From Paramecium sonneborni (lineage: Eukaryota > Ciliophora > Oligohymenophorea > Peniculida > Parameciidae): a stretch of 64,000 nt of DNA. Location of the stretch: positions 251,895 to 315,894 of the forward strand of contig CAJJDN010000064.1 in the NCBI GenBank assembly GCA_905182985.1, given 5' to 3'. How positions within the stretch are numbered: the stretch's first letter is position 1; every line of letters begins with the position of its first letter. The position numbers were made by a program, and so were the translations under genes. The notes beneath the pieces are model-generated. The model did no database searches. It worked only from the letters and a program-made list of their open reading frames with translations, and had not been told where the DNA came from. Positions 3,001-43,889 of this stretch are shown one piece after another.

Positions 3001-5148
3001 TAAGAAGTATCCATATCAATATAAGTTAAAATGGGACTTTCACGCTTTTATCATATTAAAATTTAAAAACCATTTCTTACTACTTTACCTGAAGGCTCTA
3101 GAACTTATTTAACATTTTTTAATAGCATTTTAGGTGATCTAAGTATTCTAATTAGTTCTAATGTACTAAACCAATACTTAAGACCAAAAATACTTATTAG
3201 TACATATTAAATTAATCAATTATCAGAAGTCATGAATTCTATATAAACAAAGTATGTTTAATTATATATTATTTAGTTATTATTGGAAAATGGATGATTA
3301 TTATCTCTAAATTACAAGTGATTAATAGAATTATTGTACTAATTGTTATTATATGATTTATTTGGAAAATAGTTATTATGAAATTTAATTAACTATTACA
3401 ATTAATCAACAAGATTCTCCAATATATTTATTGGATAATGTAGAGTTAAAAAATTAACTTAAAACTAATTAGTCTTAGCGCTATATTTATTATCCAAGAA
3501 ACATGAATGATTTCTATATGAATGTAACTGTTTTTAAAGGTTAAATTTATTTATTCGATCAAAAAGATGGTTCAGATATTGAATATTCTCATCATCTACT
3601 TACTCTTAGTGAATAAGATGGATTATATGATTATTTAAATAATTAATTAGCTAGCCGTGAAGGAATTCATGCTAATCGAAGTTTATATATAAATCATGTC
3701 AAAGAGAAAAACAATCTCTCCTATTATGATTTTAAAGTGTTTTCTAATTTCACAAATGAATCAATCTATTAAATTGAAATTATAGATATATATTAAGCTA
3801 TTGAATTAAAAATAGGGTAACCATAAAAGTTTAAGATCACTTCATAAAATAAGGTATAATTGTACTTTGTTATCCCTGAAGGGACTAATGATTTTAATGA
3901 TAATTACTATTCAATTACAATTGAAATTCATACCTATTATAAATCATAGATATATAATTTTATGCCTGAATTCACTTTGAAACAGGATAGATATAATAAC
4001 CTTGACCTACTCTCCAATTATCATGATTTCGTTGATGCTCAATTATCTATTTTACAAGAATTAGATAATTTAATTTATATTTAAATACCTAGCATACCAG
4101 GACTCTATTTTCTTACCCTAAATCCAAAAGAAATTAATCATTTTTCATACTCTATTACTTTAGGAAACAAAGATTATGACATATTAACACCAAAATCATA
4201 GAGATTAGTAAAAGCCAAAGTAGGAGAATAAAAGATATGGGAAATTCATCTCTATTAAACCTCTTAGCTTTTTGTGCAAATTTAATTATGTGGTGGAATC
4301 GTCAATGTATTTGGAAGTTCCTCCAGAGATGAGCTCAGTATGGGATTTTTTAAAGATAAAATTGAACACATTTAAAATAAATAATTAATTGGTATCATTC
4401 CATCTGTAATTCCTCATATTTATTATTTAAATACTTAAACTATTAAAAGTACTACATAAGATGATTCTGTTTCATATATATTGAGACTTGACATCCTATA
4501 ATAAGATACTAATATACCAATTGATCATTTTTATCCAGGGGATGATGGAGAGTTTAAAATCTTAATGATTTCAAATGAGTTGCAATTTTAATTCTCCCCT
4601 ATATAATCTTCTGGAAAGTCTAGTTAGGATTATTCATTAGAAAGCATCACTTATACTTTTTTATATTAAAAGCAAAAATAAAATGATAATTCAACATTTG
4701 ATAAATGTAAACCCTACACAAACTACCAATCACAACATTATAAAAAAATTGATCATGAAGCTTAAAAAACATTATCTCAAAAAATTAAAATAGAAGAACA
4801 TGATATTGAAAAATTACTAGCTACAATTTAAGCTACTGGTAAAAATATGTATTATATATTCTAGTAAATGTCAAAACCAATAATTATGAGAGATTATCAT
4901 TAACTTACTATTATAAGGTAAAAATTTTAGAATCAAATACTCTATCTAATGATCCCTTGAAAGGGTATTTTATTATAATACTTGCAGTCTTATTTTTCTT
5001 ATTTTTCATTTTGGCCATGAAGTACAGAAATCTTAGATTAATGTAAATATTTTATTAATTATATAGTGCCAAATTTGATGCCTATACATAAGAGCCTAAA
5101 TAAGAATATGAACAATAGATTGAAATGAATTATTCAAATTTTAAGTGA
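2..5148 (+). CDS. Giant single-pass membrane protein, 5' end missing
   Basis: The frame is open from the window edge to TGA at 5146-5148 once TAA/TAG are read as Gln and four small introns are removed (1132-1156, 2954-2981, 3252-3276, 4839-4864). About 1,680 residues are visible. The product is rich in beta-type sequence with many Asn, Gln, Tyr and Ser residues. Near the C-terminus it has one strongly hydrophobic segment (about 4966-5025, IIILAVLFFLFFILAM), followed by a short charged tail. This fits a type I surface protein with a large ectodomain and a tail of about 40 residues. No signal peptide is visible; the Met at 23 is not followed by one, so the true start probably lies upstream of the window. 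I recognise no named domain. Repeated beta-sandwich (PPC-like) modules are a guess from the sequence texture only. Confidence 0.8.
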
Positions 5149-5889: not shown

Positions 5890-8466
5890 TCAGTCTTAAG
5901 ATTCTGACATTTAAGAGTCTAATTCTTTATCTGAATGTTATTGGTCATCATCATCATCATTAAGATCGTCTTCTTCATGAATTTTTTCTGCATAAAGTGA
6001 CTCAGTTTTATGTTAAATACCAACAAGTTTTTCTAAATCCATGATTCTTTTATGTGAGAAGAGAATAGATTATCTAAATTAATATATAAGAGCATTACTA
6101 AATTTATAGTTTTTCTCTATTTAAAGCTTCAATTTCTCTCATAAGTTTATAATTTTCATTTTTTTCTTCATGCAATTTTTCTTTGAGTTTTCCATGAAAA
6201 ACTTTGAGCATAGGTTATAATTCTCTGATATTAGTAATATTATCATTATTGATTTTTTCATTCATAGCTTTTAATTCTTCCTAGATTTGGAATAGATTGA
6301 TTACTTCAGTTTTTTTAATTAATTCTTTATACTCGGCTAATGAATCTTAAAGCTATTTGATAGATGTAGTATAAAGTGTACTCATAGCAGCTACATTATC
6401 ACTTGCACTCATTCTGGTTTTGTATTTTTCATCTAGGTTAACAAATTATTTGGATTTCTCATCATAGATATCTGGAGGTTCATATAATTATCCCATTCCA
6501 GCTCTGGCAAGTACATGAGATACAGATTTACTGACTTCATCTCCTTGGAGAAGCTAAGCTGTTACATTATCAAACCTTAAGAGATTTTTAATTAGTGAGC
6601 ATAATGTCTTTTGGGAGGTAAGGACCATTATTCTATCCAAGATTGAGACTGTATAATCCTCCTTGTTTACTTGGCTTTTCTTAAGTTTTCATTATTAATA
6701 ATAATAAAAATAATATTTTAATATCTCATTAGAATATAGAGTCTTTAAAGTAGTTTTCTTTTGTTCTTTAGGTTTATTGATGAGTAGTATTTTATGGTCG
6801 TTTTTCATAAACTGATCTTTGGATTCCTTTTTTTTATTGATCTTTAGATGGGATATCAAACTAATCTTATTTTTGATTATATAGGTCAGGATCATATGAT
6901 TTTGGTATGAAAGGAGCTCTTTTTGGATATTGGATTGGTTCTGATAGTTTATCTCTAATCTAAGTGTAATATTGATTAGTTTAGTACATTCTCACTATCA
7001 TAATTATTAATATGATAGTTGGGTGTATCATATTCAGATGGATGTTTATTAGTCTATTAAAAATCAGGATGATTTGGATATTTCATAGGAGGTCTTTAAT
7101 AATAGTATTTTTAATCTTATTAATCCTCTATGGAATCTCTATAATACTATTCTGGGATAAATGGAGGAGGTCTAGATTAAGGTGGATGAGGTAATAAAGG
7201 TGGTTATTATGGATTAATTGGATGTTATTATAAATGATTATGTTATGGTAATTAAGGTATTTATGATACTTATGGTGGTAATTAAGGACGTAAATTAGGA
7301 GGGAATTTATTAATTGGAGGAATATTTTAGTAATCATGTGGTAGAGGTAGAGATGGTGGTGGTGGTGGTGAATCAAATTATGGATGAGGTGGTGGTGGTG
7401 GTTAAGGTGAATTTAAAGGAATTGAATGATGATATTATGTTGGAGGAGGCATAGTCATAGTAGGAAAGTCTTTTGGAGTATAATTAAAAGGTTATAAAGG
7501 AAGATGAGGAGGTGGAGGTGGTATTGGAATTTCTGTTGGTTTATTCAATATTCTTGGAGGTGATTATTATGGTTATGATCTTATTGAAGTTAATGGAACT
7601 TATTGATATTATTAAAATGATAATTGTGGTAATGGTGGTGGTGGTGGTGGTGGTAATGATGATGGTTATGGTATTCTAGTCATTTAAGCATTTGTCTGAA
7701 TCAATTATAATTAAGGAGGTCTTGGAATCACAGTCTATTATAAAATTGGAGGTTATTAAATAACTGTTGGAACCATATGTACTTCTTTTGGAGGGGATAA
7801 TCTAACTGTTCTCTCTGGTGATATTGTTTCTGTTGTTACTGGTACATATTCAGTTATTTCATGAGTTACAGGAACTTGAATCTTTTTTATTCTTGTTTCA
7901 TATTCAATTATTTTCTTTTCAACCGGAATATATTCTGTAATTGTTTCAGGCTATAAATTGGTAAAGTCTGATAAAGATTACTGTTATTAAATCATTAAGT
8001 CTTGTCTTGCTTATTCTGATTATGCTGTTTAATTCATCATCACATTCTGCAACTAATTTTACAATAAATAATTATGATGATGCATCTAAAGCATCTATTA
8101 AAATTATTCATTCCACTATTATTACATTATTTATTGTTATAGATTCTATGATAATTAATTTTATCTTATTTTTTGATCATCGTTTTAATATTATGGTTAT
8201 TATTATAATTAAGGTACTCCTCCCTATTATTATTAAAACTGCTATTGTTATTATTACTAATATTATTATTGTTGTTGCATCTAATAATTTTGATTAGATT
8301 GTATCATTTAAGGTGGATAGAATGTAATTGGTTGTGGTTTAATACTCATTTGAGATGGCTACTAAATCTATTGTGAATCAGGAGTATAACTTGTTTATTG
8401 AGGTAGTTGAGCCATTTGTTACATTTGTTACATTTGTTATTGTTACTGTTAATTAAATTAAATCAT
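5890..8466 (-). CDS. Gln/Pro-rich protein with alveolin-like segment and C-terminal coiled coil
   Basis: Read on the minus strand from ATG at 8466 to TGA at 5890-5892. Regions in order: a Gln-rich N-terminus (much of 8020-8460; many Gln are TAA/TAG). Next, at 7840-7960, a short Val/Pro/Glu segment with phrases such as EYIPVEKKIIEYET and ITEYVPV, resembling the EKIVEVP-type repeats of alveolins, the cortical and inner-membrane-complex proteins of alveolates. Then a long proline-rich stretch with runs of five to seven Pro (about 7100-7680), like a profilin- or SH3-binding region. Last, a charged coiled-coil part ending in an acidic tail of several Asp. A 25-nt intron lies near 6090. Exon joins near 6700 were not resolved. 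A structural role in the cell cortex is an inference from the alveolin-like part. Alternative in-frame Met codons lie shortly after 8466. Confidence 0.7.
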
Positions 8467-8591
8467 GCTTTTGCTTAGTTAAATATTTTTGTTATAAAAT
8501 ATAAACTCATATTGTGTTATAGTTATATATGTTTATAAAAGTATTAGTTAATCATATTATCTCTCTTTCTCTATTTATAATATTTATAATA

Positions 8592-10680
8592 ATGAAAAAA
8601 GACCGTCAATCATTACTCTCAAATGAACCTTTTAAAATAGGTGAAAACCCCTATAAGGCTTTCTTAGTATTAAGATAGCCTCAATTAGATGAACCTGAGA
8701 AGCCCTAACTTGTTCATTAGATCAACGAACATACAGTCTAAGCTAAGGATTAATAGTACTAGTTTAGTGGAATCTTTGCAAATAAGAACTCTAACGAAGA
8801 CATTTACAAAGCAGTATTTAGGGATTTAATTTCACATTTTTTGGCAGGAGAGTCTCATATGATATAAATCTTAGGAGAACGACATTCAGGAAAAGCTACT
8901 TTAGCTATTGGAAATATGAGAAATCCAGGACTGGTATTACTTATTATGTAGGAGATCTTTAATTTTATTGAAGAGAAATTTCTTGAAAACAACATCACTA
9001 TTAAAATGAGTGCATTTGAGTTTGACGAAACTGGTTTCAAAGATTTATTAGTTTTAGACTCTTAACCCTTTATGCCAGTCTTTTAAAATGGTTAAAACTA
9101 ATTACTTGGTATTCCGGAAGTTATCATTGATAATTATCTATTGGGAATGAAAATATTAAGAATTGCTATGGTCAATCTTATAAATAAAGAATAGAATATA
9201 CTTAGTTAAAAATTTGTTGATAGACATAAACGAACTAATTTTATTATAGAATTAAAAGCTGAAATTAGTCCAAATGATGATATCAAAGAATAGGTGATCA
9301 TTTCTAAACTTAAAATTGTTAAGTTTAGTGGAACTTTTGAATTTGGATAAATCTATAAAACAATGGCTGATTTAACTACAAAAAGAAGAAAACATGTTGA
9401 TGTCCCATTCAAAAGTGTAGAATTATTAGATTATTTTCGAGATTACTTGTTGAATTAAAAATAAACTGTTTTTGTCTGTATTAATAGTGATAGCGTTGAA
9501 ACTGTTAAATTAGGTTCACTTATTGGATAAATAATGAATAAATCTTAATTCCTGACCTTTTCCATTTATTAATAAAATGCATAATTAAAAGACATAATGA
9601 GTAATCAATATGAATCATTGAATTTATTTCATAAAGAGTTTAGTTAATATAATGAGAGCAAGAAAGAGAGAGGCAAGATAATCTTTAGCATTTTAATTGG
9701 AATGGCAAATCTATATAAAATGATGTTAAAATTATTTGATTAAGCAAGTGAAATTAAATATAAATTAAATTGCTTATATTCATAAGTGATTAGTTTTCAT
9801 TGTTCCAAATATAATAATATAATTAATACAGAGGATTGTAAAGAATTCTATTTAGCTAAAATTTAATTATATGCAATTGAGCAAGTGTAAACAGTTGAAT
9901 TGACTTGTTAATCAATGGCAATAGAATTATTAAATGATTTATTTGTTAAGAATTAATAATTAACAAAATTGAGAAAAGAGATGATTCAATTTGGTAAACA
10001 ATTCAATAAACATTAATAATTGTCTTAATATGATTTACAAAGACTTAATAATACTCATCAATTGGTGACTAAATTATTAATAATATTTGAATAGCGATTG
10101 GGTTATAATATTCTAAATTAGATTGATTAGAAATATTATTAAATGTTTGATAATGTGCTGGATATAGCATAATTGTATAAAGAAGATGTTTAGATATAAA
10201 ATTAGGACACTTAAAATTAAACTTAGACTTAGACTATAAAAAAGTAGACTTAAATAAATAACACAACAAAGTTTTTTAAACCTACTTTACCAAGTAAAAA
10301 AGAGCCTCCTTAAAGATAGAGATTCACTGATGTAGTTTAACAATTATTTCATGATGAAAATACTAAGGAATATTATTCAGCTAAGTCTGTATTTGGATTG
10401 ACAAAAATAAGTGATTAACCATAAATGAGATAAACAGTAAAATCTGAATTATTTGATAAATTATAATCTAGATAAACAAATAATATAAAGGCAATAGTAT
10501 TAGAGGAATAGAAATATCGGTATTAAATAATTTAAATTGTTTAGATTCTTCAGATCAACAGGAGTGGGATTCATTAAAAATTCTTATAGAAGTGGAAGTT
10601 TAAGAGCATAATCATAGATGTTACCAAGAATAGTTTAATTTGAGAGTGTTGACCATACTAATTAGAATTAATAATTTTGA
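8592..10680 (+). CDS. Divergent kinesin-like protein with degenerate P-loop
   Basis: 687 residues, with one 25-nt intron (GTATTAAATAA...TTTAG, about 10519-10543); the spliced length is an exact multiple of three. The N-terminal half keeps a kinesin motor outline: a first strand LVLRQPQ where kinesins have VRxRP, a segment equivalent to FxxVF...(E/D)xxY, then a nucleotide-loop relative at 8874-8900, GERHSGKAT. Active kinesins have GQTGSGKT; here the last Thr/Ser of GxxxxGK[ST] is Ala. Switch I and II positions (near DRHKRTNF and KFSGTFEFG) lack SSRSH and DLAGSE. The C-terminal half is Gln-rich and helical. ATP hydrolysis is probably lost, so it may act as a scaffold or partner of a real motor. 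A true kinesin gene lies two genes downstream on the same strand. The kinesin assignment is inference from motif order. Confidence 0.6.
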
Positions 10681-11697: not shown

Positions 11698-14600
11698 ATG
11701 TCTGAAAGAGTTAAAGTAGCAGTTCGACTTCGCCCTTTAATTGAAGAGGAATTAATATGTAAAGACAAATCCATATGTGTTGAAACTATAGACCCTAATA
11801 AAAAACTTATTATCAGTATCTATTTTCATCATTCTTAGTCAAGAAAGATTTTGAGAAGAGACAATTTCAATTCGATTCTGTTTTTGATTCTAAAGCAACT
11901 TAAAATCAAGTTTACAATGACATAGCAAAAGGAGTTGTTGGCGTAAATTAATTATATATATATTTAGAGTGTAATCAAAGGCTTTAATGGCACTATTTTT
12001 TGTTATGGATAAACTGGAACAGGTAAAACATATACTATGATGGGTCAACTTGATTCAGATGAAAAGGGAATCACTCCTCGTACTTTTGAATAAATTTTTA
12101 ATGAAATCTAAGCAGATGCCAATAACATCTATACGGTTTAATTAGGATATTTGCAAATCTATATGGAAATGGTATAGTTTTGATATTTATTTTAGTTATT
12201 GGATCTAATTAGACCAGACAATTAAGAAGTAAAAATTAGAGAATGTCCTGATAATGGAGTTTTTGTTTCTGGATTAGAATGGATGGAAGTTGAATCTCCT
12301 TAAGAATGTTTAAGTATTATGAATTTTGCTGAAAAAAATAAAGTGGTTGCATTTACAAATTTAAATGCACACTCTTCAAGGTCTCATTCAATGCTTGTAA
12401 TAAAAGTAGAAAAGAGATAATCTAAATAGCATTCAAAATCAATGACTATTTCCAAAAAAGCTAGTTCTAAATTATAAAATTACTCTTAAGATTTAATAAC
12501 AGAAAGTGATGAAAGTATAATATCATCTGGTAATTGTGTTGGAACACTTTATCTTGTTGATTTAGCAGGAAGTGAAAGAATTAAAAAATCTAGAGCTACA
12601 GGAGATCGTTTAAGTGAAGCAAGATCTATAAATTATTCACTTACAGCCTTAGGAAAATGTATTCATGCTTTAACAGGTCCTAAATCTACATTTGTTCCAT
12701 TTCGTGATTCTAAATTGACTAGAATTTTATAAGATGCACTTGGAGGCAATTGCAAAACTGCATTAATTGTAAACATTGGTCCTGCTGGTAAACATGTTGA
12801 AGAAACTCTCTCAAGTCTTACTTTTGGAATGAGAGCTATGAAGGTTACTAATACACCATAAATTAATCAAAATGTTGATTATGAAGTAATAATCTTATTT
12901 ATTTATTAATAGCAATTAACTTAACAACTCAAAATTGAAATTGAAATGAAGGATGAAGTTATTCAAAAATTGGAATAGTAATAAGCCAAATTGTTATAGT
13001 AAGTTAGAATTGAAACTTCTTGCAATCTTAGCACTTCAGATCATTAATATAAAGTTAAATTAGAAAAAGCTGAAGAAGAACATAAAGCATTTCTAGAAGA
13101 AATAGATAATATGATGGTAGAATAAGAATAAGAGAATGAAGAACTCAAAAAATAATTAGCTCATGTCATGTTAGAATTAGAAGATTCTAAAAATAAATAA
13201 TCATAATTAGAATAAGAAATAGAAGAATTTAAAAATTCTTAATAGCAATTAGAAAATGAATTAGAAGAAGCTCTAACTAATGTAAATAACTGTTATTTAT
13301 CTTTTTAGAAAAATGAATTTGCTGATACTATTAATTAATTGCAATAAAAATTGGAATCTAAAGAAAAAGAAATTTAAGAACTTAAATAAGTCACAGTCTT
13401 GTCCACAAAAAATAATGATATTATCAAAATATCTAAAGAAAAATAAAATTAGATGTGGAGATCAGAATTATAATAAATAACTTCATAATATGCCAATAAA
13501 TTAGAAGAAGTCAAAAGATTAGAGTTTTAATAATAGGAAAAAGAAAATAATAACATATTAGAATTTAAATAAAGAAATGAAGAGCTTATTTTATAACTCA
13601 AATAATACAAATACTAAAATTCAGAATTAAAAGAATAACAATAATAATTAATTTTGACCAATTAACAACTTGAAGAATGTTTACAAAAATAAAAGGAACG
13701 TTGTTAAGAGGAATCTACTTTATTATAATAAATCAAAGATCTTGAAACAGTTAATAATGAAATTACTAAAAGATTAGAATAATATGAAGTTAAATTAAAG
13801 AAATAAAAAGATTAACAATAATAAAATGAATTTTCTTATTAACAAGAACTAGAAACTAAAAATGAACATCTCAACAAAATTCAATTAGAATATCTTGAAA
13901 TATAAAAATAAATTGCTTTAATCAAAGAATAATATTCCACAATCTAAACCATAAATTAATAAAAACTTAAGTAATTAAATCATGAAAACTAAATGTTAAT
14001 TAATAAAAATGCTGACTATTAATTACAAGTCTAACAATTAATTGAGAAAAATAACGAACTTTAATTATAAATACAATAAAGTAAAAGTTCTTAATATAAT
14101 AATTACAATTAATACTTAAATAATTCTAAATTTGAATATTAAACTAATTAATCATATGTTAATGAATAAAATTTTGATATAGAATTAAAAAAATCAATAA
14201 CAGTTTCTGGAGTTAATGAAGGTCAAATTGTTTTTGAAATGTAAGTTCGAATTCAATAATAAGAAGATTTTATTGAATAATTATAAGTTTAATTAAAACA
14301 AAAAGAAAATATAATAGAGGAACTTCAAATGAGGTGTTCTAATACATAGAAGGAAGCTGAATAATTGAAATTTTAGATGGAATCATTTTCTAAAAGATCT
14401 TAATAATCATTATAAAGAATGGAAGAAACTATGTGTTAAGAAGTTGTGAGAAATGTTTTAGAAAAGATGATTTTTTAGATAGAATTAAATTCTTTTGAAT
14501 CAGATGATATAAGTAGTCGTGCTCCAGATAGTGATTTAAAACTTTAAATGAAATCATTTTCTAAATAAGATAATGCTTAATTAGTCGAAAGTTTATTTAT

Positions 14601-15232
14601 AAATTCTAAACAAAGTTAACATAATGCTATTGTTGAATGTGATGAGGAAGAAGATAATTCATCAGAAATAGATTATTAATTACCAAAATTTAGTTAATCT
14701 GGTTAAAAAATTTAGTAAAAATTGAGAATGTCAAAAAGTAGACAAGATTCTGTCTTTTCATTTAGTGAGAAATAATAAAAAAAAGACGCAGTTTCTCTAT
14801 ATGATGATTTAAGTGAAATAAATTAATAATATGATATATAAAGTCCAAGATCATAATTTGATGAAATTCAATTTTAAATAGATTTTAATGATGCAAATGC
14901 AGTTGATAAATTTATGTCATAAATTAAAAAGAAATAAGTATCTCTAATATAAAATAATGACTTATCAATAGGTTCAATATAATAAGTACTTAGTCCTTAA
15001 TATATCGATAGTTTGAGTGAAAAAAAGGCAAAATTAAATTCTAGGTATAATTAATATTGATTATAGAATTGGAAGTGATGAATTATAAGAAGTTATTAAA
15101 GTAATGGCTTAAATGTTAGTTGATAAGAGTAAAACTGAATATACAGTAACTACTAATACGATGGAAACTTTAAAAGCTTCTTTATTAGACTTTAATAATT
15201 TGTGCAACACTTTAACAACATATTTTTTGTGA
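11698..15232 (+). CDS. Kinesin, N-terminal motor with long coiled-coil tail
   Basis: 1,137 residues after removal of five introns of 22-27 nt (first one 11816-11838); the spliced length is exactly divisible by three. The motor is intact: VRLRP at the start, P-loop GQTGTGKT at 12007-12030, switch I with SSRSHS near 12376, switch [11 protein letters not shown] near 12552, and the SKLTR and SLTFGMRA motifs before the neck. Roughly residues 400-1,000 form a long Gln/Glu/Lys coiled coil, followed by a Ser-rich, partly acidic tail. The motor wording (YLQIYME, GTGKTYT) resembles the ungrouped ARK-type kinesins, but no armadillo repeats follow. It would move along microtubules using ATP; cargo unknown. 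A degenerate kinesin-like gene and a coiled-coil gene precede it in the same direction. Confidence 0.93.
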
Positions 15233-19301: not shown

Positions 19302-19302
19302 N
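19302..19302. other. Single-N assembly gap
   Basis: One undetermined base that separates two identical 1041-bp copies. It marks a contig join whose overlap was not collapsed. Confidence 0.95.
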
Positions 19303-27272: not shown

Positions 27273-29017
27273 TCACTTGAATAATGCTGCAAATTCTTAA
27301 AAATCTACTAAATTATCTTAATTTTTATCAACAAGTTAAAAAACAAGAGTTTGTTCTTCAATTGTTGATGAATTATCCATGACCTTGCACAATTATTAAA
27401 ATTCTGCAAGTTCTAATTTTTAATTCTTATTTTTATCAAAATTCTGGAATATTTACTCAATTTTTAAATTATTTTATTTAACAATTCTCACTAATTCAGA
27501 AAGTATTTTCTAAAAATATTAAATAATATATAATACATTAGCTTTTTCTTTAGCTGGATTAAACTTTGAATCTTAATCAGTTCCATATGAAAGTTCTCTC
27601 TTAAATTCATCAAAACTAATTTTTTTATCATTATTCTTATCAAATTTATTAAAGACAACTTGAATTTCTTCATTTTTTAATGCTGGTGCAACAGTACGAC
27701 ATAATTTAGTAAATTCATCAAAATCTAAATCACCTTACTAATCTTTGTCAAAATTTTTGAAAATATCTTCAATTTTCAAATTATTAGCTTTAATAATTTC
27801 TTTTAGATCAACAATAAGCCTTTCAGCTACATCTTTTAAATTAGAGTAATCATAATCACAAAATAATTTTTTAAATTCATCAATGCTAACCTTTTAATCT
27901 CCACTTTTATCTACCAATTTAAATAAATGTTCAACTTCTTTATGAGTTACTCTTGAATCTAATGCTTATATAAAATTATAAAATTCATTTAAATCTAAAT
28001 TTCCTCCTTTATCTTAATCAAATATTTTGAATTGTTATTCCAAATTTAGATTCTTAGCTTAAATAATCTTTTATATATTAGCTAAAATTTGTTTAGAAAT
28101 TTCATCAACTTAAAAGTTATCCTAAGGAATAAAATTTATTAATACATATTATCTATCATTTTATGATATTTTAAGTACATCATGTTTAAAAACATCATTC
28201 CACCCTATTCTTTAATTTTCATCAATAGTCAAACATTTTTTTATAAAATCTTTGAATTATTCTGAAACTTTTTTTTCAATTGGAAATTTTAATGGTGATG
28301 ATTTAATGTTTAATAGATAAGAGTTGAGATCTCTACAAGGCCAAGGTTATCTACCATAAAGCATTTCATAAGCCATCACTCCAATTGACCAAATATCACA
28401 TTTAGCTGTATATGCGGTATTTTGAAGGAGTTAAGGTGCCATATAAATAGGAGTTCCAACACAATCTCTAATTAGTTATCTACCTGTTATATCAGCTTTA
28501 GTAGCAAATCCAAAGTCAGCAACCTTATGAATATTCTTATGAATGAGTGAATTTTCTGGTTTTATATCTCTATGAATATATCCTGCTTTTGTCATCTCTT
28601 AGAATCCAAGCATTAATTATTATAACACTTATTAGGCTAAAACTTCATCTAACATTCCTTAGTGTCTACTTAAAAAGTGTCTTAAGTCTCCACCATCACA
28701 AAGTTCTATTATTAATACCTAATAAATTATAGATATTTTTTACTGTTTATTTTGAATCACCAAATGTATCTACAAGTCGAACAATGTTTGGATGTTAAAG
28801 TTATTTCATTATAGCTATTTCTTTATGTAATGCATCAATCATGAATTGATCATCAAACAAAGTCATATCCATAACTAAACTCAAAATATTCAATAATACT
28901 TTTTATAGCTACAGCATCTCCGGTTTAAGTATCTTTACCTTTATAAACTCTTCCAAATGAACCACGTCCAAGAAAATCTTTCTCCAAGTATTAATATCTA
29001 TTCTGTAATGTTTACAT
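27273..29017 (-). CDS. Calcium-dependent protein kinase with six EF-hands (copy A)
   Basis: About 564 residues; two 25-nt introns lie in the kinase part and an optional 27-nt one between EF-hands. The kinase has [22 protein letters not shown] and DFGFA, and [11 protein letters not shown] where most kinases have APE; the Glu is replaced by Gln (TAA codon near 28432). Six EF-hand loops follow, for example [52 protein letters not shown] and DKNQDNLVDFQEF. Typical CDPKs have four. Calcium binding would release the kinase domain, phosphorylating Ser/Thr on unknown targets. The activation-segment wording resembles ULK-type kinases. A close tandem paralog starts 55 nt upstream on the same strand. 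Confidence 0.9.
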
Positions 29018-35751: not shown

Positions 35752-36317
35752 CAATCCAAAGAAGATAATCTGACACAACATATTTTAAATAAGAAATTTT
35801 TAGAATTGTATATAAAAAGTACTATACTAAGTTAATAATTTATAATAACAAACTTAAAATAAATTATATTAGCAGAAATATGGAATGCAATTAAAATAAA
35901 AATAAATATTAATTCTGAGGGATAAGGATTAATATTTTGTTTTCATAGATCTCTAAAAAAAATGATTTTGAAAATTGGAGGAGGATTAATATTTAGAATT
36001 TTATTATTTTAAATGGAAGTTGTTTTATAAATATATCAAAAATGAAAATATGAATGATTGAAACAAAGTTAAATATATTAATTTTAATGTTATCTAATTG
36101 ATCCTTTTAAGATATTTTTTATAGGGAATCATAATATTATAAAATAGTTAAAATATATTATAATTTACTAGATCTAAAAGATATATGTGAAATAAAGGTT
36201 TTTTAGGATTAAACTAATGATTATAAGTTTAGTTCAATTAGAATATTATGACAGGAGAATTGAATATTAATATAGAAAATGTTATAGTCATTATCACATT
36301 AAACACTAAATCAGTTT
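35752..36317. other. AT-rich stretch without a supported gene
   Basis: About 565 nt with no frame that reads convincingly on either strand. From 35825 on it belongs to the repeated segment. Confidence 0.45.
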
Positions 36318-36566
36318 TCAAATAATTGCACAATTGCAAATTTGAGTTTTTTTGTTAGTTTGTGTCTCTTCCAAATTATATTCTTTGAAATTTTCAACAA
36401 TGTGAATTTCGAATAATGGGCCATTATTTGCTTAATCTCTAAAAATAATTTTGTGAGAATTATTTCCCTTTAAAATAGGATTATTGAAAGCATCTTTTCT
36501 AGATGTTTAGGCAGTGAGTGGAGGACTTATTTCAGTCAATTGTACAGAGCTTACATCAGCATTCAT
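36318..36566 (-). CDS. Small conserved protein with C-terminal CaaX box (82 aa), copy 1
   Basis: Single exon, ATG 36564-36566 to TGA 36318-36320, 83 codons exactly. The order is a polar start (MNADVSSVQLTEISPPL), a basic stretch SRKDAFNNPILKG, then HKIIFRD, a gap, and FEIHIVENFKEYNLEE. I associate the pattern HKxxFxD...VExxKxYN with small protist proteins of unknown function. It ends C-A-I-I, a good CaaX prenylation signal, with a second Cys two residues before it. So it is probably lipid-anchored to a membrane. The gene lies between the tmcB-like gene and the HECT ligase. The same gene appears again after the gap. Confidence 0.62.
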
Positions 36567-36682
36567 TTATAAAAATTAATTTTTAGTATAGTTCTTAAAA
36601 ACTAGATGATGATGTGATGATTATAGTTGATATAAAAAATTCAAATAATAATAATAATAATAAAATGATGAAACTTCTTAAA

Positions 36683-36954
36683 TCACATCAATCCGAATCC
36701 TTCTGCATTATCTAGAGATATTTTTAACTTTTCTTTTAAGGTTTCTTTATTTTTATATTATGGTAACAATAGAACATTGAAACAAGTATGAGCTGATGGT
36801 AATTATTCAGTATCTAAATAAATATATATAAAATAAATACCTTCTCCATGTTTTTAAATAACAAACTTCATTGATTTAAGTCCTCCTACAGGGATTCTAT
36901 CAGATCCTGTGCAAAAGAATAAAAATCTTTTTTGCATTTCTACATTTAAGGAGT
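36683..36954 (-). pseudogene. Duplicated 3' end of the HECT ligase gene (artefact)
   Basis: Same text as 37814-38085: the HECT C-lobe with the catalytic Cys and stop, cut at the gap. It should be merged with the full gene. Confidence 0.85.
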
Positions 36955-36955: not shown

Positions 36956-38085
36956 TACTAAGTTAATAATTTATAATAACAAACTTAAAATAAATTATAT
37001 TAGCAGAAATATGGAATGCAATTAAAATAAAAATAAATATTAATTCTGAGGGATAAGGATTAATATTTTGTTTTCATAGATCTCTAAAAAAAATGATTTT
37101 GAAAATTGGAGGAGGATTAATATTTAGAATTTTATTATTTTAAATGGAAGTTGTTTTATAAATATATCAAAAATGAAAATATGAATGATTGAAACAAAGT
37201 TAAATATATTAATTTTAATGTTATCTAATTGATCCTTTTAAGATATTTTTTATAGGGAATCATAATATTATAAAATAGTTAAAATATATTATAATTTACT
37301 AGATCTAAAAGATATATGTGAAATAAAGGTTTTTTAGGATTAAACTAATGATTATAAGTTTAGTTCAATTAGAATATTATGACAGGAGAATTGAATATTA
37401 ATATAGAAAATGTTATAGTCATTATCACATTAAACACTAAATCAGTTTTCAAATAATTGCACAATTGCAAATTTGAGTTTTTTTGTTAGTTTGTGTCTCT
37501 TCCAAATTATATTCTTTGAAATTTTCAACAATGTGAATTTCGAATAATGGGCCATTATTTGCTTAATCTCTAAAAATAATTTTGTGAGAATTATTTCCCT
37601 TTAAAATAGGATTATTGAAAGCATCTTTTCTAGATGTTTAGGCAGTGAGTGGAGGACTTATTTCAGTCAATTGTACAGAGCTTACATCAGCATTCATTTA
37701 TAAAAATTAATTTTTAGTATAGTTCTTAAAAACTAGATGATGATGTGATGATTATAGTTGATATAAAAAATTCAAATAATAATAATAATAATAAAATGAT
37801 GAAACTTCTTAAATCACATCAATCCGAATCCTTCTGCATTATCTAGAGATATTTTTAACTTTTCTTTTAAGGTTTCTTTATTTTTATATTATGGTAACAA
37901 TAGAACATTGAAACAAGTATGAGCTGATGGTAATTATTCAGTATCTAAATAAATATATATAAAATAAATACCTTCTCCATGTTTTTAAATAACAAACTTC
38001 ATTGATTTAAGTCCTCCTACAGGGATTCTATCAGATCCTGTGCAAAAGAATAAAAATCTTTTTTGCATTTCTACATTTAAGGAGT
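36956..38085. repeat. Direct repeat copy 2, 1130 bp (assembly overlap)
   Basis: Second copy of 35825-36954; continues into the unique part of the HECT ligase gene after 38085. Confidence 0.9.
37449..37697 (-). CDS. Small CaaX-box protein, copy 2 (artefact duplicate)
   Basis: Identical to the gene at 36318-36566, shifted 1131 nt. One genomic gene is expected. This copy is next to the complete HECT gene. Confidence 0.65.
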
Positions 38086-40795
38086 GTATTAAATTCCAAA
38101 AATATCTATTTAGTTTATTTATAATACTTAATATATTCTGAATTATTTTCATATCCATCATATTTTGTAGATGTCTCTAAATCTTTCATATCAAAAGTTG
38201 GCAATCCAATAATTAATTATTGCAATTCCTCACCAGAAAATAACTATTTTAAATAATTAATTTAAATTTTTACTTTTATACCATCACCATCAACAACAGT
38301 TTTAAATCCATCCCTCATTAATTCAAATTATTTTTAAACTAATTTATTTAAATACCAATCTGTATACAAACGAATATATTCCTCTCTATTTTCAATGGTA
38401 ACATCAATTTAAAATCCATTAGGCTACATTAAATTTATGTTTATGATACCTTTAAATCTTCATAATAGTTTTCATCCCAAACTTTATATGTAGCATTAAA
38501 AGTGAGAGATAGACTCTCAATAATTTTTGGATCAGTTTATTCTCTTAGAAATTGAAATCCAGTATAAGTTTCCATATCTAATTCTTTCATATCTTCTTCC
38601 TTCACTTTCTCTCCTCTTAATTTCTTAAATAAAACTGTAGGGAATCTAACATCTAATAATACAGAATTATAAAGTGATAATCCTAATAATTTACCAATCA
38701 AAGAATAATATATAGGCATTTCAAAAGATTATGGATTAAACCAAAATACAGTATCATTATTTTTAGGAATAAACATACCATAATCAGGAGTGACTAACTT
38801 CTCCATTATCAATCTAAAGAATTCTCTTTTAGGTCCTCCTTCATCCACTCCTTATTCATTAACAAATTGAACCTTTAAAGGATTCTTCAAAGATACTGAA
38901 GTTTACTGTAGTTATTTAATAGCAGATTCTATTATATTATCTCTTTCAACTGTTAAAGAGACATATTAAGGTAGAAATCCAAATGTTCTTCTTCTCTAAT
39001 CATATTATTTTACTTTGCATTCAATATAAAGTAATTTATATTTAAATTCTATTGGCATTGCCCAAGGGTATTAACAAAAAGTAAATGAATAATTTCTCCA
39101 AATTTTTTAATTAAACATTTAGAATTAAGTGAATTCTTCTCTATCTGCATCCATTTTATAAAAATATTATATAGAATTTATGATAAATTCACTTGCTTAT
39201 ATTCTAGGATTCCTTAAATTAGACTTATAAATAACACTATAAAGTTCAAATAATCCTTTCATTCTTTAAATATCATCAATTTCTAAAAGTGGTCTAATTG
39301 GTGCATTTCCTTATATATTTATTTATTATTCAATTTAATTCTTTATTATTTATTACAATTATTTTAGTTCAGATTTATCAAGTTTTCTAAACCATTTTGA
39401 TAATTATGTTAATTACTATTAATTTAATCTTCTTATTATTGTCAATACTATTTATGTTTTCTCTTCTAAAATAACATTCAAACAGTTTCTAAATTAAAGA
39501 ATTAAATAAAGTGCTCTAAGTTAATTTAAATTTGTTAGTTATTCAATATCTAATACTTTTTTTTAAAATAAATTCTTTATTATTTATATTAAGTTTTCTT
39601 TCTATTAATTCAATAAATTTGCAGTATCTTGAATCAATTTAAAATTTACTTCTGGATTTTCTAAATCTACTTTATAAATCCCTTAAGTTTTATTGAAATT
39701 TTCAACAAATGAGATTCCAAATAATTCCAAAGAATTTGAAATTTTCAATAGTTCTTATACTAGATCCTTATTTACTTCTTTTTAATAAAATGGTTAAAAA
39801 TTATCAGTAATTGTTTTTTCTTTTGAGCATATTAATTCCCATTTAACTTCTTCATTTTCAATTAATACTTAACATATTCCTTAAATATCTTCTTCACCTA
39901 ATCCTAATTCAAAATATCCATTATTTTATTTACATTATGGAAACTCACAAAATTTCTTACCACATCCTTATAATGCTTTTTCTATTAAAAGTTTATAATC
40001 ATATTCCATTGTTTTTTCAAATTTTGATAATTACCAATCATTCATTTCAAAATCTACAATTAAACAATTGTCTCTTTAACTCTATATTTAAAAAACCATC
40101 ATATTATCACTTAATATATCTCCATCAACTTATTTTGTTTTTTATATTTATTATATTAATAAATCTGCTTTAAATGTTTTATGTCTTGGACTCCAAATTC
40201 GAACATTTTTTATTTATCTTGGTTTAAACATTTCTTAAAATGTATCTCTTAATAAATTTGTCCATGCCTTAATCTCAGAATTATGATCTACTTAAGCCTT
40301 TACTATTTATAATTTATTATCTATAGGAGACCAATAAATTAAAGTAAACTTAAAATAAAATAATTGATACTCTTGCTAAGTTAGGAAATATTTATTTTTT
40401 TTTAAGATTTTCATTATAAAATCCTACTCTTATTTAAGGCTCAATTGATTAATAATTTGTTTTAAAATTCTCATAAACATCTTTCATAACCTAAATTTTC
40501 TATTACATAATTACATATTCATAATCCCATTCATTTTCTAAATAACGTATAGTAGAATTATATATATGATCTTCTGGAATGTATTTAAATATCTTCGCTT
40601 CTTATATTAAATCAGAATTGATTTTATTAGGCTATTCATATTTAAATTCAAAACTTTCTATCGAGTTTCCTTTTAAAACTCATCCATCTCCTCATCATAA
40701 TCTACGTAATATTTCCATTCTTTTATGAATTTCTTAGATATCAAATAGTACTCCATCCCTCCTTTCTCTTTTAGTGATTTTTCTATCCTCTACAT
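37814..40795 (-). CDS. DUSP-AZUL-HECT E3 ubiquitin ligase (UBE3A/HECTD2-like)
   Basis: 958 residues after removal of four introns (23, 29, 26 and 27 nt), which leaves exactly 959 codons. N-terminus: a DUSP-like domain (about 40560-40775) with YYLISKKFIKEWKYYV, then NKINSDLI and a DYEYV strand; DUSP domains are usually found in ubiquitin-specific proteases. Middle: a Cys-rich AZUL-like zinc motif (39934-39980, QGCGKKFCEFPQC) as in the N-terminus of UBE3A, then helical text with PIRPLLEIDD. C-terminus: HECT N-lobe (EFFRLIMEKL, FWFNP, LIGKLLGLSLYN) and C-lobe with FCTGSDRIPVGG and PSAHTCFNVLLLP, catalytic Cys at 37913-37915. It would form a thioester with ubiquitin and transfer it to substrates. 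ATG 40795 is the first Met of the DUSP frame; an upstream exon cannot be excluded. The 3' end is repeated at 36683-36954. Confidence 0.87.
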
Positions 40796-40951
40796 GTAAA
40801 TAGAAAAATTACTCTTCTTCCATCTTCATATTAATTTAATTCCTAAGAAAATGGACCTTCTTATTGTTATAACAATTAGAGGAGATTCTGAATCATCATT
40901 AAAATAAATAATATTCAGATTAGTATAATTTACTTAAATATTTCTATAAAG

Positions 40952-43693
40952 TCATTATTAACTCAGAACAGATTAATTCTCTTTCACCCATTATTCTGTT
41001 TTACTAAAATATAATTTACTTCAATACCTTAATTATCTTAGTTTTTCTTATATTTACTCCAATTTAGCTCTTCCTGTATTTTTCATACTTTCTATATAAG
41101 AATCTTGATTTTCTTATTTTGATTTCATTAATCTTTCTAAATCCATCTAAACCATTTTTTAATCTGCTAATAACTAGTCTTTTTATTATCTTATTTAAAT
41201 CATTAATTAAGCAACTGCAGCTTCTATTTCAAAAGGTGATTTGTTATTCGATATTTTATTTCTTAAATTATCTATTTGATTACCAAATTATCCAAATGAT
41301 GATAAATTAGTTTCTTTAAATAATTTACTATTATAATTAAAATTATTGATATTCTTTTTTATTTCTTAAATCTTTTGTTATTTATATTGAATTTATTCTA
41401 AAAGTTATTTCTCTTATTATGTTAATTGTTTTAATTCAAATTTTTATTTATTTATAATTTATCCATACTCTATTGATTAACTTGTCTATTATAATTGAAT
41501 TTATAAATCATCCACCTCTTACTTATTTTTATTGTATTCATTTTTAACTATACTTAATTCCTTTTTTAATTATTCAATATTCTCTAATAAATTTTGTTCT
41601 TTTTATTTTTTTGAAAATTAATCTTGCTCAAAAAATTCTCTTATTTATTATTCTTATTATTAAGCAGAATCTTCAAAATTTTTTTTATATCTATAAAACT
41701 CTTCCTTTTATTTTTCTTCTAATTTTTATTTTTCCAATTCAAATTCTTCCTCTTTTCTTTTTTTTTCTATTTCAAATTACTATTCTAAGATTCTCAACTC
41801 TTTATTTATTTGATCATCAATTTCTTTTCTCTATTTAGCTTCTTATTCTTTAATCTATTTCTTTATCTTCATTTTTTCTATTTCCAATTTCTATTTTAAA
41901 TTTTCATTTAACCTTTATTCTTCATCTTCAAATTCTTTTTAAAATTATTATTTAATCTAACTTTCATCAAAATTTTATTTTGTTTTTTTTTCCTTAGACA
42001 ATTCCTCCTCTAAAATTGATAATTCTTGATTTATTTTTTCTTATTCTTATCTTCTAAATGATTCGATTTATTCATCAATTTAAATTTATTTAGCCTTCTT
42101 TAATTCTTCAAATTTCTTATCTTCCTCTTCCTTAAATTTTTACTTTAAAATTTCTAATTCTTTCTCTTCATCATACACTGTATTAGTAGTTTCAAATCGT
42201 AACTATTTTTCTTGTTCAACAAGTGTTTAATATTCTTTTTCACATTTTGCTTCAATTTCTTTTTTTTAATTTTTAAATTATTCTTCATATTCCTCATCAA
42301 TCTTTTCCATTTGTTTTTCCTCTTATTATTTTATATTTTTTTTCTCAATTTCTAATCTTTATTAAAGAGTCTTTTCTAAACTTGCTTTTGAAACTCTTTC
42401 ATATTATTCTAATTCTAACATTTATTCTTCCTCCTATTCTTTTAACTTCTTTAATTTATCTTCATATTCTTATTTCTATTTTGCAGATGTTACTTTAATA
42501 GATTCTTTTAATTTTTATATTTACTTTTCATGTTCTTAATCAACTTCTTTTTTTTATTATTCAATCTTTTTATCAATCTTTTTCTTTTATTCTTCAAATT
42601 CTTTCTTTTTTTATTCCCTATATTATAATAATTTTTTTTCTTGAGTTTATTTTAATAATGGATCTTATTCCTTATTAAAAACATCAGAATTAACAATAGG
42701 TTAAACTTTAAATAAAAATAAAAATATTTACTGGCAATTTCAGGTTCTTTTTCTTTTCCTAATAGTTATTCTTTAACACTTTTAGCTTGATCTTTTGCCA
42801 ATTTCTCAATTTTTTTTTATTTTTCTTTTTAAAACATTTACTTATAATATTCATCACAAGGATGTTCTTCTTATTGTTAATTGGTAACTAAATTAATATA
42901 AGAGATTTCTTTATTTCTATTTTAATAAGGTTTCCTTATATATATATGTATATAGAATTACCAAGATTCTGGCAATGGAGCCATCAAACCTTCTCTTGCA
43001 ATATATAATAGATCATTATCTTCAGGTAATTCCATTCCTAAAAAATAAGCATATTCTCTAATTTCTAATATTTTAACTACTTAAATGAATACCTTAATTT
43101 GTAGGTCTATAATGTTCATCTATTTCTTCTTCTAAAAGTACAGACTCTTAATCTTCATCATCTTCATAATTAATTTGACTTCCCATACCCATTTATGCCA
43201 TTCCCATTTATCCCATCTATGCCATTCCCATTTATCCCATACCTAATTATCCCATTCCTTTTTTCATAAGATTAGATCCCATTTACATTTAATTCATTTA
43301 TCCCATTTACATTTAATTCATCTAACTTGTGTTTCCATATTAAATATTATTCATTCCAACCATACCTTATTATTATCCAAATTTATTTTTTTAGGTTTAT
43401 TGCTGTTAAGGTTATTATTTAAAACCAGAGCTATTTGAGAATCCCATACTACCAGACATATTACTAGACATTCCAAATTATTTTTATTAGTTACTAATTC
43501 CTGAGAACCCACCAGTTCCTGACATATTCATTCCACTTTAAATTCCATTTGACATACCAAGACCAGACATTCCCATTCCTGACATTCCCATTCCAGACAT
43601 TCCCATTCCATGATTCATATTAGAAGTTGGAGGACCTTATATTTATATATTTTAATAAGAACCTGTTTTTTAAGCCTATTTATTTTTAGACAT
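40952..43693 (-). CDS. CEP164-like protein, WW domain and long coiled coil
   Basis: 887 residues; introns of 28, 26 and 24 nt leave exactly 888 codons. The N-terminus is a Met/Gly/Gln-rich repeat region (GMGMSG, QMNQMQMG, GMAQMGQ; 43185-43620), then an acidic patch. A CEP164-type N-terminal module follows: REYAYFLGMELPEDNDLLYIAREGLMAPLP (split here by the rule, key parts LAREG-like YIAREG and PLPESW), then a degenerate WW part with EEHPCDEYYKQMF, as in CEP164 (HPCDEHY). The rest (42700-41000) is a Lys/Glu/Gln coiled coil. CEP164 builds transition fibres at the basal body and is needed for docking and ciliogenesis. Head to head with the docking-complex gene (196 nt). The Met-rich start is unlike animal CEP164. 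Confidence 0.83.
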
Positions 43694-43889
43694 GATGATA
43701 AAAACAATTTTAAATATATTTATAAATATTAATTCAATATTTTATGTTTCTAAATAGTATAATATAAAGTATTACTTTATTTAAATTTAAACATATCTTT
43801 TTTTATCTTATTTTGAATCTTGCTCTATAAAAACAAGAATTCAATTTATTTTTTGTTTTACAATTTAAATTAAATATTATTTATTAAAT
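43694..43889. promoter_or_regulatory. Shared divergent promoter region, CEP164-like / docking-complex genes
   Basis: 196 nt between two outward-facing start codons of two ciliary genes. Very AT-rich with T and A runs; no specific motif recognised. Promoter role inferred from orientation. Confidence 0.4.

Follow-up and report, generated by a model that had tools for sequence, protein, structure and literature searches.

Can a module of deubiquitinating enzymes become part of a ubiquitin ligase? This question is raised by a gene in a 64,000-nucleotide stretch of the genome of the ciliate Paramecium sonneborni (contig CAJJDN010000064.1, positions 251,895 to 315,894 of the forward strand; hereafter the window), for which an earlier reading of the letters alone, the original prediction, had proposed a DUSP domain, an AZUL-like cysteine motif and a HECT domain in one frame. 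Judged by its sequence, the gene, which occupies positions 37814..40896 on the minus strand and encodes 961 amino acids in nine exons, probably specifies an active UBE3A-type HECT ligase that has acquired, at its amino terminus, the tandem of a DUSP and a ubiquitin-like (UBL) domain otherwise found in the deubiquitinases USP4, USP11 and USP15. The gene structure, the order of the domains, their conservation in paralogues and relatives and the intact catalytic motif were computed here.

The window, part of a macronuclear assembly, uses genetic code 6, has a G+C content of 19-29% in 2-kb steps, and the introns of the DUSP-HECT gene measure 22-30 bases. Splicing guided by protein P0001 of P. primaurelia and, separately, by P0005 of P. 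pentaurelia yielded the identical eight introns, a start at 40896 (adjoined by a further ATG at 40899) and a single open reading frame that ends with the TGA stop codon at 37816-37814. All eight positions and phases are found again in two paralogues, C68 and C85. Among the eight genomic copies considered below, intron 1 (23 nucleotides, 40790..40812; column 33, phase 0) upstream of the DUSP domain, introns 2 (23 nucleotides, 40632..40654; column 78, phase 0) and 3 (24 nucleotides, 40491..40514; column 117, phase 0) within it, and introns 5 (26 nucleotides, 38424..38449; column 808, phase 0) and 8 (27 nucleotides, 37945..37971; column 941, phase 1) in the HECT domain are present in every copy, and intron 7 (22 nucleotides, 38106..38127; column 896, phase 2), likewise in HECT, is present in six of the eight. 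Intron 4 (22 nucleotides, 40349..40370), near the start of the UBL, lies at column 165 in all four members of subfamily A and at column 156 in all four of subfamily B; intron 6 (30 nucleotides, 38244..38273; column 858), in HECT, occurs in subfamily A only, in four of four copies. Introns 3, 6 and 8 have lengths divisible by three and contain no in-frame TGA, so that the unspliced frame stays open and they are easily overlooked. A model with five introns, a start at 40795 and 953 residues was dropped: the relatives are longer at the amino terminus, and three more introns were needed, one near the start and two whose lengths are multiples of three (introns 3 and 6). On this rejected model the DUSP domain scored 29.8 bits with Pfam, as against 38.6 on the corrected product. 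The four introns and 959 codons of the original prediction could likewise not be reproduced, and its start at 40795 moved to 40896. At the other end of the gene, positions 35825-36954 and 36956-38085 form an exact 1130-base duplication that meets at a single N (36955) and supplies a second copy of the gene's 3' end. A second gene end downstream was rejected, since exact 1.13-kb copies meeting at one N are likely an unmerged contig overlap.

The carboxy-terminal part of the product is a complete HECT domain (Pfam PF00632; residues 665-960, 37817..38812), matched with 321.2 bits and an E-value of 1.1e-95 over profile positions 2-305 of 306, in agreement with what had been proposed for it. Its catalytic cysteine, Cys929 (codon 37915-37913), lies in an HTCFN motif that aligns with the same motif of UBE3A and recurs in every one of 24 entries, among which 20 are distinct, and the ligase ends in EGFGLM. 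Among the families represented in the PDB, a profile of the whole family ranked UBE3A first with 384 bits and RSP5 next with 267, a gap of 117 bits; HECTD2 and HERC proteins were not among the best 60 of the 79 entries, and families outside the PDB could be closer in sequence than UBE3A. The alignment with UBE3A also includes an AZUL match upstream of the HECT domain, in the same order as in UBE3A itself. The stretch between AZUL and HECT, taken from one subfamily B protein, had no match in the PDB, and NCBIfam gave none on P0001 and P0013.

At the amino terminus, the predicted DUSP domain proved significant (Pfam PF06337; residues 39-133, 40428..40759, split by introns 2 and 3), with 38.6 bits and an E-value of 1.5e-9 on the 961-residue product against a cut-off of 29.3. 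Given their E-values and their conservation in relatives, the DUSP and HECT domains are both beyond chance. The original prediction had overlooked a UBL, which directly follows the DUSP domain and precedes the AZUL-like segment (approximately residues 149-252, 40049..40382, as placed by alignment with P0008, the public protein of a paralogue). In a fold comparison, the predicted structure of P0008 adopts the same DUSP-UBL tandem fold as USP4, USP11 and USP15, and a sequence profile of the DUSP-UBL part matches USP4 (best E-value 7.3e-5) and USP15, through the DUSP part. The idea that a UBE3A-type ligase carries a module typical of deubiquitinases thus gains support, and, as far as the structural model can tell, the whole tandem appears to be present. 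The model itself calls for caution: it is of modest quality (mean predicted local distance difference test score, pLDDT, of 61.2) and represents P0008, not the window protein, and one of the eight tandem entries in the comparison, which re-ranked the first 1000 Foldseek chains, superposes only at a root-mean-square deviation of 17.9. The AZUL part of the model lies outside the range spanned by the fold matches. Together, the window product and its 16 relatives (17 proteins) matched 14 Pfam families at an E-value of up to 1, none of which is a protease family, so that no USP protease was found. A Pfam DUSP search of the genome returned 57 matches at an E-value of up to 10, in which the window copy (C64) reached 19.9 bits and C68 22 bits; since the domain is split by introns, members of this ligase family score weakly in such a search, and the list was therefore not used to count fusions.

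Between these two parts lies a cysteine-rich, putatively zinc-binding segment (residues 265-335, 39800..40012), which is likely an AZUL domain on the basis of its sequence. It contains the motif GC-x4-C-x4-C followed by a tryptophan and a fourth cysteine, located 35 residues after the third in the window protein. Cys281, Cys286, Cys291 and Cys326 are invariant in all 17 proteins, and the pattern matches 24 of 24 entries, 20 of them distinct and most overlapping the aligned set. When a profile built from ten fragments was searched against the PDB, the first nine matches were all UBE3A (E-values of 0.0017 to 0.042), with the next family starting at 0.13, and the first three cysteines stood in register with UBE3A in the printed alignments. 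Several scores weigh against this assignment. On the window fragment, the Pfam AZUL profile reached 14.1 bits, below its cut-off of 23.8 (E-value 0.057), and the unrelated family Acanthaporin did slightly better (0.044); AZUL was matched in five of the 17 full proteins at an E-value of up to 1 (best 0.096) and in seven of the ten fragments with a best E-value of only 0.011. Comparison with the UBE3A segment by hhalign gave a P-value of 6.6e-5 but a probability of just 63.9%, and the AZUL stretch of the whole-family alignment to UBE3A alone accounts for 9.2 bits (i-Evalue 2.3). Searching the entire genome with the Pfam AZUL profile gave no match, as expected from the weak scores of the family's own copies. 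Of the proposed union of DUSP, AZUL and HECT in one gene, the order and the single spliced reading frame therefore stand, while the AZUL part stays below the Pfam cut-off. The cysteines might instead belong to another small zinc motif that merely resembles AZUL, an explanation in keeping with the weak Pfam scores, with the split among the ten fragments (seven matched by AZUL, best E-value 0.011, and three by Acanthaporin, best 0.019) and with the 35 residues from Cys291 to Cys326, a span longer than the 29 residues of human UBE3A. We nevertheless consider it quite unlikely, given that UBE3A fills the first nine places in the PDB search (best E-value 0.0017 versus 0.13 for the next family), that the segment precedes a UBE3A-type HECT domain as in UBE3A, and that AZUL-HECT proteins have been reported for the ciliates Tetrahymena and Oxytricha (PMC5913265).

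The window gene belongs to a larger family. At least eight copies are present in the genome, counted among the best candidates, which are those that the copy search scores; they divide into subfamily A (C64, the window copy, with C68, C85 and C96) and subfamily B (C3, C4, C5 and C6), and the window protein shares 36-39% identity with its subfamily B relatives. Four copies are letter-identical to public P. sonneborni proteins (C68 to P0004, C4 to P0011, C5 to P0010 and C6 to P0017). Seven are free of internal stops. The eighth, C96, looks from its sequence like a degenerate copy: at this locus (L033; G000 C96:146500-152500), the DUSP-UBL-AZUL part is intact, and an internal stop and frame breaks follow further on. 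Because the intron just upstream of the DUSP domain and the two within it occupy identical columns and phases in all eight copies, the fusion is older than the split between the two subfamilies. Sixteen public relatives combine a HECT domain with at least part of a DUSP domain, all of them from Paramecium (P. primaurelia, P. octaurelia, P. tetraurelia, P. pentaurelia and P. sonneborni), and for 15 of the 16 both domains are precomputed by Pfam (P0001-P0007, 958-969 residues; P0010-P0017, 926-941 residues). In P. tetraurelia P0018, DUSP is absent from the precomputed list, and the first half of the domain is missing from the annotated protein; across the 17 proteins, our own Pfam search found HECT in 17, DUSP in 16 and AZUL in five (at an E-value of up to 1), the member without a DUSP match being most likely P0018. 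The sole matches outside Paramecium, P0009 and P0019, have a HECT domain but, by their precomputed Pfam lists, no DUSP. The searches reach proteins that share short exact words with the query (two of the three scored the ~8,000 candidates with the most words in common, and each of the three gave nine matches, some of them shared), so the restriction to Paramecium holds among word-sharing matches and implies neither absence from other organisms nor the ciliate specificity considered in the original prediction.

Selection was assessed in five pairs of copies and five regions by a Nei-Gojobori codon count under code 6. The ratio of nonsynonymous to synonymous substitution rates (dN/dS) lies below 1 in every region, with 0.15-0.44 for the amino terminus including DUSP, 0.09-0.32 for the UBL, 0.15-0.51 for AZUL, 0.14-0.39 for the middle region and 0.08-0.14 for HECT. 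Single values are rough, since the degenerate C96 is part of one pair and C64/C85 has a high synonymous rate (0.62-2.9). The front end is under constraint, albeit weaker than that acting on HECT, and the difference counts against the reading proposed here: in C64/C68, the DUSP region reaches 0.44 and HECT 0.09.

These comparisons also bear on the alternative explanation that our model joins two neighbouring genes, one for a DUSP-UBL protein and one for an AZUL-HECT protein. The public annotation of C96 as a 534-residue DUSP protein without HECT (P0008) could be taken in this sense; however, the internal stop and frame breaks of that copy indicate that the short annotation reflects decay. In the window gene, a single exon of 1899 bases runs from the UBL through AZUL into HECT, without an in-frame TGA between the parts, and P0001-P0007 and P0010-P0017 carry both domains, with P0018, a ninth match beside the latter group, lacking a DUSP call. 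A fusion created by the model is therefore extremely unlikely.

Around the fused gene, the single Ns at 19302 and 47824 have 25-base flanks that recur ~1042 and ~927 bases away, and all three single-N joins of the window look, from their sequence, like unmerged overlaps. The artefact may be general in the assembly, as the same pattern is seen at the C3 paralogue (L037; G000 C3:805700-811500), where the flanks of a single N at 3574 are repeated 1069 bases apart at the start of the copy and obscure its first exon. The upstream neighbour (~41021-43700, minus strand) contains a fragment that matches the amino-terminal part of CEP164 (E-value 3.5e-11), followed by a long coiled-coil-like frame, and may encode a protein of the ciliary base; Pfam found no match on the CEP164-like fragment. 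Elsewhere in the window, a kinesin motor domain is found in two open frames on the plus strand (6945-10640 and 12184-15057; E-values 1.3e-15 and 2.7e-59), and a frame on the minus strand (27276-28805) combines a protein kinase domain with EF hands downstream of it, an arrangement resembling that of calcium-dependent protein kinases.

How might the ligase work? Its intact catalytic residues suggest that a ubiquitin-conjugating enzyme (E2) would load ubiquitin onto Cys929, from which it would be passed to substrates. The AZUL-like zinc finger could dock the ligase on a partner, possibly the proteasome subunit Rpn10 as in humans, where AZUL binds RAZUL, the tail of Rpn10 (PMC7064531). A VWA_2 search of the genome gave 40 matches, and a frame scan of eight of these loci produced five translations, none recognisable as Rpn10. 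One Rpn10-like locus (L048; G000 C117) was found with an Rpn10 query, and its tail resembles, by eye, helix 1 of human RAZUL as described by the residues named in PMC7064531, which provides a lead only. A phmmer search of the Paramecium Rpn10 tail against the PDB found no match, and this makes the link to the proteasome a weak one. The DUSP-UBL tandem, finally, may recognise substrates or adaptors, so that the ligase would reach the kind of partner otherwise bound by DUSP-UBL deubiquitinases.

It is tempting to go one step further and speculate that a recognition module of deubiquitinases has been rewired to the opposing enzyme, with DUSP-UBL directing the ligase to substrates of the deubiquitinases or tuning HECT transfer, such that one module serves both the writing and the erasing of ubiquitin; we regard this scenario as possible but doubtful. 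Two studies report what the tandem can do, namely promote the release of ubiquitin from the catalytic domain of USP4 (PMC4243247) and, in USP11, bind peptide motifs (PMC13376213), and by analogy either activity could be reused in a ligase. The former raises the alternative that the tandem acts on catalysis, not recruitment, by contacting HECT or the bound ubiquitin and speeding its discharge. Apart from the effect on ubiquitin dissociation from USP4, this notion is consistent with the shared tandem fold of the P0008 model and with the fact that DUSP and HECT have been kept together in the seven stop-free copies and, by precomputed Pfam domains, also in 15 of the 16 Paramecium relatives that carry HECT. 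HECT, however, is a catalytic fold unrelated to USP, and the paralogues USP11 and USP15 are regulated in different modes, according to the USP4 study (PMC4243247), which renders an effect on catalysis fairly unlikely.

Compared with known systems, the Paramecium protein resembles animal UBE3A/E6AP in that an AZUL-like zinc segment is followed by a UBE3A-type HECT domain with a catalytic cysteine and a carboxy-terminal GFG motif. It differs from UBE3A/E6AP and other AZUL-HECT proteins, which according to Marin include fungal HUL4A and some proteins of Tetrahymena and Oxytricha (PMC5913265), by the addition of an amino-terminal DUSP-UBL tandem. AZUL-HECT proteins of ciliates are thus already known, and the tandem is what sets the present family apart; the available portion of PMC5339648 mentions neither ciliates nor AZUL. 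With USP4, USP11 and USP15 it shares a DUSP domain followed by a UBL in the same tandem fold, as modelled for P0008, yet it has a HECT ligase domain, and Pfam finds no USP protease domain. Small HERC proteins such as HERC4 (P0009) likewise possess a HECT domain, with 29% identity across 58% of the query, whereas the precomputed Pfam list of P0009 contains no DUSP-UBL-AZUL part and instead accessions of RCC1-type repeats. DUSP-UBL is known as part of deubiquitinases, and our searches of open-licence PMC papers, with Paramecium and Tetrahymena among the subjects, brought up none that appears to describe a DUSP-HECT fusion. The domain combination is already visible in public databases through precomputed Pfam lists, and the names given there to the proteins go no further than HECT-type transferase or unnamed product.

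Joined naturally to a UBE3A-type ligase, DUSP-UBL can have its function probed in a different catalytic setting. Continued recruitment of partners in the ligase would mark the tandem as a portable recognition module; an altered HECT turnover would mean that it acts on ubiquitin itself. Paramecium is also a further lineage in which the UBE3A family, which matters in Angelman syndrome, has probably gained parts and multiplied.
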